This document shows positions 26,989 to 28,408 of a stretch of 33,958 bases of DNA, in pieces. Each line of letters begins with the position of its first letter. Within the stretch, counting starts at the first letter, position 1. This DNA is from Candidatus Uhrbacteria bacterium (GTDB lineage Bacteria; Patescibacteriota; Patescibacteriia; 2-12-FULL-60-25). The translations under genes and the position numbers were made by a program. The stretch lies in assembly GCA_016203535.1 (NCBI GenBank), contig JACQMO010000015.1, forward strand, positions 101,295 through 135,252, written 5' to 3'. Under the pieces are notes generated by a model. It was not told the origin of the DNA. It searched no databases and worked only from the letters and a program-made list of their open reading frames with translations.

Positions 26989-26995
26989 GATGTTC

Positions 26996-28408
26996 ATGTT
27001 GAAGCTTTGGAATACTTCCAGCCGGACAATTGAAGAGTTCCAGCCGATCGCGTCGAAGCGGATCGGGATGTACGCGTGCGGGCCGACCGTTTACCAGCGG
27101 GCGCACATCGGCAATTTTCGCGCGTATGTCTTTGAAGACATCCTTCGGCGCGTCCTTGAGCGCGAGGGATACGGCGTGACGCACGTCGTTAATATCACGG
27201 ACGTCGGACATCTCGTCGGGGACGTGGATGAAGGCGTAGACAAGGTCGAACAGGCCGCGCGTTCCGCCGGTAAAACCGCGTGGGACATCGCGCGGGAGTT
27301 TGCGGATCTGTTTCTCGTGGACCTGAAGCGGCTGGGGATCGAGTTGCCGACGAGGATGCCGAAGGCGACGGACAACATCCCGGAGCAGATCGCGCTGATC
27401 CAGGAGCTGGAGCGAAAAGGGTTTACGTATACGACGAGTGACGGCGTCTATTTTGACACGTCGAAATTTCCAGAATACGGATCGTTCTCCGGCCAACCGC
27501 TTGAGGAAAAGGAGGAGGGAGCGCGGGTCATAACGAACCTCGAAAAACGGAACTCGACGGATTTTGCCCTGTGGAAATTTTCACATCCAAACGGAAGATC
27601 CTTCGACTCCGCTCAGGATGACATACAGACGAAACGTCAGATGGAATGGGACAGCCCGTGGGGCGTCGGGTTTCCCGGATGGCATATCGAATGCTCCGCC
27701 ATGTCGAGGAAGGAGCTCGGACAGCCGTTCGACATCCATGCCGGTGGCGTTGATCACATTTCGGTCCACCATGAGAATGAAATTGCGCAAAGCGTCGCGG
27801 CTTATGGCGCGCCCCTCGCGCGATACTGGTTTCACGTCGAATTCCTGCTCGTCGACGGGCAGAAGATGTCAAAATCCCTCGGAAACACGTACACGCTCGA
27901 GGATCTGGAGAAAAAAGGGTTCGATCCGCTTTCGTACAGGTATTTCCTTCTCGGCGCGCACTACCGGCAAAAGCAGAATTTTACCTGGGAGGCGTTGAGC
28001 GCGGCGAAACAGGCGCTCACGAAACTCCGTCACGCGGTTCGAGGATGGGACGAGCCGAAGACGGGCTGCGCGGATTTGGAAGCCGAATTTTTCTCCGCGC
28101 TGCATGCCGACCTGAACACACCTCAAGCTTTGGCCGTTCTCTGGAAAACGGTGGATTCCGAAGTTCCGACGTCCGCAAAAGCGGAGACGGTCCGAATGAT
28201 GGACCACATCCTTGGTCTCGGCCTCTCGGGGATCATCGCCAAGCCGATTCCCGTCCCGGACGCCATCAGGTCTCTCCTTGACGCCCGTGCATCCGCCCGC
28301 GAACAGAAAAACTGGTCTGAATCAGACCAGCTTCGCGACGAGATGGTGTCGCTCGGATGGAACGTCGAAGATACGTCGGACGGCCAACGTCCGCATCCGG
28401 CCGATTAA
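26996..28408 (+). CDS. cysS: Cysteinyl-tRNA synthetase with repeat-derived insertion
   Basis: The 470-residue class I synthetase charges tRNA-Cys. Motifs: YACGPTVYQRAHIGN (HIGH-type H37-N40), KMSKS at 290-294, and zinc ligands Cys28, Cys233, His258 and Glu262 (spacing 25 and 4 as in the family). Between ALWKFS and KRQMEWDSPWG a segment of about 15 residues (PNGRSFDSAQDDIQT, 198-212) is inserted; its DNA is a widespread intergenic repeat. The fold should tolerate it because it lies in a loop before the zinc-binding part. ATG 26990 is also in frame, but the promoter spacing favours 26996 (MLKLWN). The stop shares TTAA with the convergent corA stop. Confidence 0.95.
   Translation: MLKLWNTSSRTIEEFQPIASKRIGMYACGPTVYQRAHIGNFRAYVFEDILRRVLEREGYGVTHVVNITDVGHLVGDVDEGVDKVEQAARSAGKTAWDIAREFADLFLVDLKRLGIELPTRMPKATDNIPEQIALIQELERKGFTYTTSDGVYFDTSKFPEYGSFSGQPLEEKEEGARVITNLEKRNSTDFALWKFSHPNGRSFDSAQDDIQTKRQMEWDSPWGVGFPGWHIECSAMSRKELGQPFDIHAGGVDHISVHHENEIAQSVAAYGAPLARYWFHVEFLLVDGQKMSKSLGNTYTLEDLEKKGFDPLSYRYFLLGAHYRQKQNFTWEALSAAKQALTKLRHAVRGWDEPKTGCADLEAEFFSALHADLNTPQALAVLWKTVDSEVPTSAKAETVRMMDHILGLGLSGIIAKPIPVPDAIRSLLDARASAREQKNWSESDQLRDEMVSLGWNVEDTSDGQRPHPAD
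27595..27624 (+). repeat. Dispersed repeat element inside cysS
   Basis: The core ccttcgactccgctcaggat plus gaca corresponds to a short repeat seen between genes in many bacterial assemblies, which yields the spurious peptides SFDSAQDD, VILSGVEGS and CHPERSRRI in its frames. All three appear here in the six frames. It is in frame in cysS. Confidence 0.75.

Follow-up and report, generated by a model that had tools for sequence, protein, structure and literature searches.

In-frame dispersed repeats at one turn of cysteinyl-tRNA synthetase in a Candidatus Uhrbacteria genome and its relatives

The cysteinyl-tRNA synthetase (CysRS) gene of a Candidatus Uhrbacteria bacterium carries, in frame and at the tip of a turn of the enzyme, a copy of a short dispersed repeat, and in related genomes the same turn holds repeats of several unrelated families. 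The gene lies in a 33,958-nucleotide stretch of contig JACQMO010000015.1, referred to here as the window. We think it probable that this permissive turn repeatedly catches repeats multiplying in the host, while those entering elsewhere in the enzyme are mostly purged. In-frame REPs are already known. As far as we can find, in a search that left most subscription journals outside, a single turn of an essential enzyme hit repeatedly by many unrelated families appears to be new; with the same coverage, we found no literature joining CPR, a synthetase and palindromic insertions, and no match for six typical strings of the window family (TTCGAC..GCTCAGGATGA, in the CHPERSRRI and VILSGVEGS readings). 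One exact point in an essential enzyme could serve as a natural recorder of the short repeats multiplying in a lineage, it would supply numerous natural comparisons, before and after entry, of the way mobile repeats turn into protein, and it identifies a place in CysRS where insertions are tolerated.

The repeat copy in cysS

The cysS gene (26990..28408, forward strand, as are all features below) is intact and encodes a CysRS of 472 residues, which matches PF01406 (E 8.1e-95) and PF23493. Its closest named counterpart, from a Candidatus Uhrbacteria genome, is 57% identical, which places the gene's host in the Patescibacteria and, going by that name, probably in class ABY1. The predicted fold is that of CysRS in the PDB, with 8qhp and 1u0b (the latter with tRNA) as the best solved-structure matches. 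In the AlphaFold model, which has a mean pLDDT of 88.8, an extended loop at residues 199-214 (HPNGRSFDSAQDDIQT, 27584..27631) follows the strand at residues 192-197 and has lower values of 66-74 in an otherwise confident model.

Within this loop lies the 20-mer core of the repeat, TTCGACTCCGCTCAGGATGA (27602..27621), which had been named in a preliminary description of this DNA. It is read in the cysS frame and is the sole match in the window at three or fewer mismatches, where 100 shuffles gave an expectation of 0. Pattern searches and an alignment of 57 copies extend the repeat to the 28 bp AGATCCTTCGACTCCGCTCAGGATGACA (27596..27623), since conservation drops at both ends; three copies in the genome start with GGAAGATCC, which would push the 5' end of the cysS copy to 27593. 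The unit has the form AGATCCTTCGAC-NNN-GCTCAGGATGACA, about 28 bp in all. In the cysS frame it reads RSFDSAQDD, with SFDSAQDD as the core. Four of its six frames are open, the other open ones giving DPSTPLRMT, VILSGVEGS and CHPERSRRI; translation of the frames thus bears out the peptides SFDSAQDD, VILSGVEGS and CHPERSRRI that the preliminary description had drawn from the core.

The insertion point is the tip of the turn between FALWKFS and KRQMEWxSPWG. A genus-mate (G001, locus L005) has an empty site, reading KFS-PVGS-KRQMEW where the window gene reads KFS-HPNGRSFDSAQDDIQT-KRQMEW, so that four residues face 16. The net gain is 36 nt, or 12 residues over the loop usual in the class. An element between KFS and KRQMEW adding about 15 residues had been described previously; the position holds, and the size comes down to 12 residues and 36 nt, not some 45. 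With only ~71% protein identity to this nearest empty site, divergence at the turn is too great for a target duplication to be called.

Residues Cys30 (27077..27079), Cys235 (27692..27694), and His260 and Glu264 (27767..27781) are the equivalents of the E. coli Zn ligands Cys28 and Cys209 and of E. coli His234 and Glu238. Cys30 is invariant in 30 relatives, and the other three are likewise invariant in relatives. We take their role in binding Zn to be that established for CysRS. The distance from Cys30 to Cys235 is indeed wider than in E. coli, as had been noted, yet by alignment the repeat accounts for only about half of the extra length; the remainder comes from a ~10-residue lineage difference (NITDVGHLVGDVDEG) near residues 72-82 and from a base loop of 10 residues versus 7. 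The insert-bearing enzyme would be expected to work normally.

Further copies of the repeat, whose search had been proposed earlier together with that for empty sites, were found in the same genome (811 kb in 30 contigs, 88% complete). There are about five in all: the cysS copy, C17:14535, C21:5993, C23:10617 and a weaker one at C16:10561. The repeat is thus rare in this genome and not 'ubiquitous', as it had been called. On the other hand, the claim that a dispersed repeat has entered an essential gene and left its reading frame unbroken agrees with the intact ORF, the empty site of the genus-mate and the further genomic copies.

The copy at C23 lies in frame in tsaD (PF00814, L277:1247-2344; G000:C23:10617-10632), where it reads ...IRQGSPSTGSGTILGSF..., so that two essential tRNA-related genes of this genome are decorated. 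Relatives have in-frame copies in valS, argS, dnaX, grpE, a P-type ATPase gene, dusB, mnmA and tsaD. The presence of the family in frame in tsaD, valS, argS, dusB, mnmA, dnaX and grpE indicates that tolerance is not special to cysS. We also observed that in-frame copies are conspicuous in tRNA-related genes (L276, L267, L383, L384 and L393: valS, argS, dusB, mnmA and a tsaD with two inserts), which may reflect an enrichment.

The same turn in related enzymes

The comparison took in CysRS sequences from 147 genomes in the class, from 78 further genomes in the phylum and from 80 named ones. Among the 145 class loops that were readable, 103 were short (typically SPxxxKRQME), 31 carried recognisable dispersed repeats and 11 were longer with no clear repeat. 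The repeats comprised the SFDSAQDD, STSSG/STGSG and HPERxE frames of the window family, CGTC-type REPs (in cysS of two relatives), a GTAG-type REP (in one), CCCCCTT..AAGGGGG hairpins and minisatellite-like sequences; the GTAG-type and minisatellite-like sequences were assigned to dispersed families by form and general knowledge and not by copy count. Examples of the loop DNA are CCCTTCGACAAGCTCAGGGC, CATCCTGAGCGAAGCGAAG (reversed), GTAGGGGCACGGCGTGCCGTGCC, TCTCCCCCTTACCAAGGGGGAGA and tandem units such as TCCGACCTCCGACCTCCGACTTCCGA, and one cysS loop contains a complete head-to-head REP dimer, GTCATCCCCGCGAAGGCGGGGATCCAG...GGATTCCCGCCTGCGCGGGAATGAC.

Alignment of the 147 class enzymes placed 32 insertions of at least six residues at this loop, compared with at most eight at any other site, those being mainly C-terminal linkers. 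The turn tolerates from a few to about 50 extra residues in the class. In the 80 named genomes, mostly of other phyla, only two loops bore repeats, and both belong to Patescibacteria. The preliminary description would have given up its reading if all relatives carried a similar loop with unrelated DNA. Many do carry such a loop, but the DNA in it is usually another dispersed repeat; entry into cysS is therefore no one-off, and the window copy is one of at least 26 events at a hotspot.

For two types of insert, we counted copies in the host genome as a whole. Copies of the REP ATTCCCGC..GCGGGAAT number 8 in G005 and 11 in G030, two genomes that have it in cysS as well; the G030 congeners G025 and G034 have 0. 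The CCCCCTT..AAGGGGG hairpin is present in 22 copies in G191 and 3 in G229, again both with the hairpin in cysS, and in 0 copies in four short-loop family-mates of G191. For both types tested, the insert in cysS is one that has multiplied in the same host genome. G006 has 10 CGTC-type copies and yet an SFDSAQDD loop in its cysS, indicating that a repeat stock is not sufficient.

Several individual CysRS sequences deserve mention. The longest loop at the turn, of 60 residues with ACGCAGAT-type repeats, was seen in L164 (G054). In L249 and L191, the adjoining second loop at SPWG has an insert (PFGTAQGKSG; repeat-like in L249) beside an HPER-type insert in the main loop. The enzyme with the full REP dimer in its main loop, L028 (G005), has a second CGTC-type peptide, LDSRLRGND, after residue ~351. 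In L161 (G024:C36:6600-8250), cysS appears to be broken into two matches that overlap, with a TAG close to the residues that immediately precede the loop, from a frameshift or an assembly error. Finally, L058 and L063, from records labelled Betaproteobacteria and Pseudomonadales, show a KRQMEW/QRQMEW loop of the Patescibacteria type, which would point to mis-binning or transfer.

Origin and fate of the inserts

On a loop-masked tree of 241 CysRS, with ambiguous long loops set aside, there were at least 26 changes between presence and absence of an insert, and at least 8 between the SFDSAQDD type and empty rows; these counts do not separate gain from loss, and with FastTree support moderate in places the exact number is approximate. 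Close neighbours differ in state within one genus (L004/L005 and L027/L167) and within one family of another class (L287/L293). Genus g13 alone has four states: empty, SFDSAQDD, CGTC-REP and GTAG-REP.

The SFDSAQDD loops have in common a leader, S-[YH]-P-x-G, that lies outside the dispersed repeat. The combination of the leader TATCCNAANGGN with the element was found only in cysS, in 5 of 286 genomes, and we rejected the YPxG leader as part of the mobile unit for this reason: the leader belongs to the gene itself, into which the repeat came later. As a sequence feature, the common leader hints at some shared history of the loop, or at convergence. Between the window genome (G000) and G350, which is of a different class, the element DNA is identical and the leader has diverged; elsewhere, third positions match at 76 of 222 shared residues. 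A gene-conversion tract around the loop was considered and rejected, as there was no clear rise in third-position identity in the flanks.

Compared with the repeat consensus, the SFDSAQDD copies in cysS show 16 synonymous and 5 nonsynonymous differences, where ~20% synonymous would be expected, and three diverged FDPxQDD loops show 24 and 10; some of the rows are related and the peptide played a part in grouping them, so that formal p-values overstate the case. This pattern in the codons suggests that the inserted SFDSAQDD peptide is under constraint.

Taken together, we propose that a short, non-autonomous, REP-like repeat of ~28 bp enters the tip of a surface turn of CysRS in frame. Selection on the essential enzyme would filter for frame and openness, for which four open frames out of six leave room, and the permissive turn would capture small repeats multiplying in the host, with inserts at other positions of the enzyme mostly lost. 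Once in place, purifying selection would keep the SFDSAQDD peptide as its codons drift. We favour survival bias, in which insertion is frequent and roughly untargeted and the turn is simply where an insertion can be carried. Insertion itself would then be untargeted, and the repeats presumably move by a REP/RAYT-like or template-copy route.

Could the SFDSAQDD loops instead go back to one ancient insertion, or one donor cysS, with later inheritance, spread through horizontal transfer or short recombination, and frequent loss? The 22-residue length and the S-[YH]-P-x-G leader common across lineages, the restriction of leader plus element to cysS and the diverged FDPxQDD relatives in genus g14 would fit such a history. 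We nevertheless consider it unlikely: a tree of 54 rows in which the eight SFDSAQDD rows were held together as one clade was rejected (p-AU 2.6e-33), G000 and G350 combine identical element DNA with diverged leaders, flanking third positions are not clearly raised, and the unrelated repeat families at the same site are left unexplained. It is also conceivable that the loop DNA of cysS, or its mRNA, has a property that draws many families to the site, which would bias arrival as well as survival. One site does hold unrelated families, inserted in either orientation, and where tested the cysS-resident copies come from the host's own stock; both observations are compatible with this idea. We find it quite doubtful, since the families have no common target and are unlike in sequence and probably in mechanism, the DNA of empty sites is not conserved beyond its codons, and in-frame copies occur in many other genes too.

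That the peptide is adaptive, giving CysRS a new contact with tRNA, a partner or regulation and being kept for that, would account for the synonymous excess in the inserted codons, including those of the diverged FDPxQDD forms; with peptides as different as VIPAKAGIQ..DSRLRGND, PPYQGG and HPERSEE at the same turn, and most relatives with no insert at all, we find it equally doubtful. A bolder combination, in which the turn is an active landing and domestication site with biased arrival and with repeats turned into selected protein, would mean that intergenic repeats supply an essential enzyme with new coding sequence again and again throughout the Patescibacteria; we regard this as improbable. 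By far the least credible possibility is that there was no insertion and that a native loop has codons resembling the repeat by chance, or that the assembly is in error. Its one foothold is that the closest empty-site relative, at the ~71% identity given above, does not permit a target duplication to be demonstrated. Against it stand the expectation of 0 chance matches, the element's recurrence at the same codon in genomes that were assembled independently, some of them with it on contigs of ~1 Mb (G013, G014), and the clear presence of other repeat families at this site. Capture by a permissive turn remains our preferred reading.

The dispersed family and its kinship to REPs

A search of 41 genomes of the family with TTCGAN(3,4)GCTCAGGA gave 56 places, spread over 17 of them, compared with 1 for the reversed control. 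An apparent copy in L036/L259 was dismissed as a chance match because it reads IILSALEK in a long ORF and lacks the conserved AGATCC end. In the alignment of 57 copies, the unit is ~28 bp with sharp ends, within the 20-40 bp that is typical of REPs. Its reverse strand opens with TGTCATCC / TGTCATCCTGAG..., corresponding to the terminal tag of the CGTC superfamily in its TGTC form followed by the AT of the stem; TGTC is a common variant of that tag (Di Nocera 2013, PMC3733652). The stem of 8-9 bp with a loop of 4-5 nt is not seen, as only ATCCT/AGGAT pair firmly, and the folding energy of the unit is -4.9 kcal/mol (z -1.4 in context). Because the stem is too weak, we do not file the repeat under CGTC-tagged REPs. 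REPs typically have many dispersed copies, mostly intergenic; here the picture is mixed, with the 56 places in 17 genomes on one side and, on the other, few copies in this genome and many copies in ORFs.

We found no match for a RAYT or Y1 transposase (Y1_Tnp, PF01797) in this 88% complete genome; the domain is present in 25 of the 57 genomes searched. Comparison of its distribution with copy counts led us to reject RAYT presence as a simple predictor of copy number, and no transposase was identified for the repeat family.

Like the window element, repeats of the GTAG and CGTC superfamilies (REP/REPIN) are short dispersed units of 20-40 bp that sometimes lie in frame in ORFs; CGTC REPs have a stem of 8-9 bp, and the window element only a weak one of 5 bp (PMC3733652). 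Previous work has shown that REPs occur in ORFs including those of tRNA synthetases, and that recB carries different REPs at about the same site in two Xanthomonas species (Di Nocera 2013, PMC3733652). The REPs of that study occupy different sites in further genes that share a functional category, in contrast to the one CysRS loop that holds several families in many lineages here.

Rickettsia palindromic elements (RPE) are similar in being in-frame repeats in protein genes, some of the proteins being expressed (per PMC3733652), and the window copy resembles them in lying in frame in a conserved gene whose counterpart in a relative is empty at that site. By its description RPE-1 is longer and comes from Rickettsia, and we know of no report of a single loop with many unrelated families among RPEs. 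The ATTCCC..GGGAAT unit of Neisseria dRS3 / CGTC-1, a family different from that of the window element, was found in cysS of G005 and G030.
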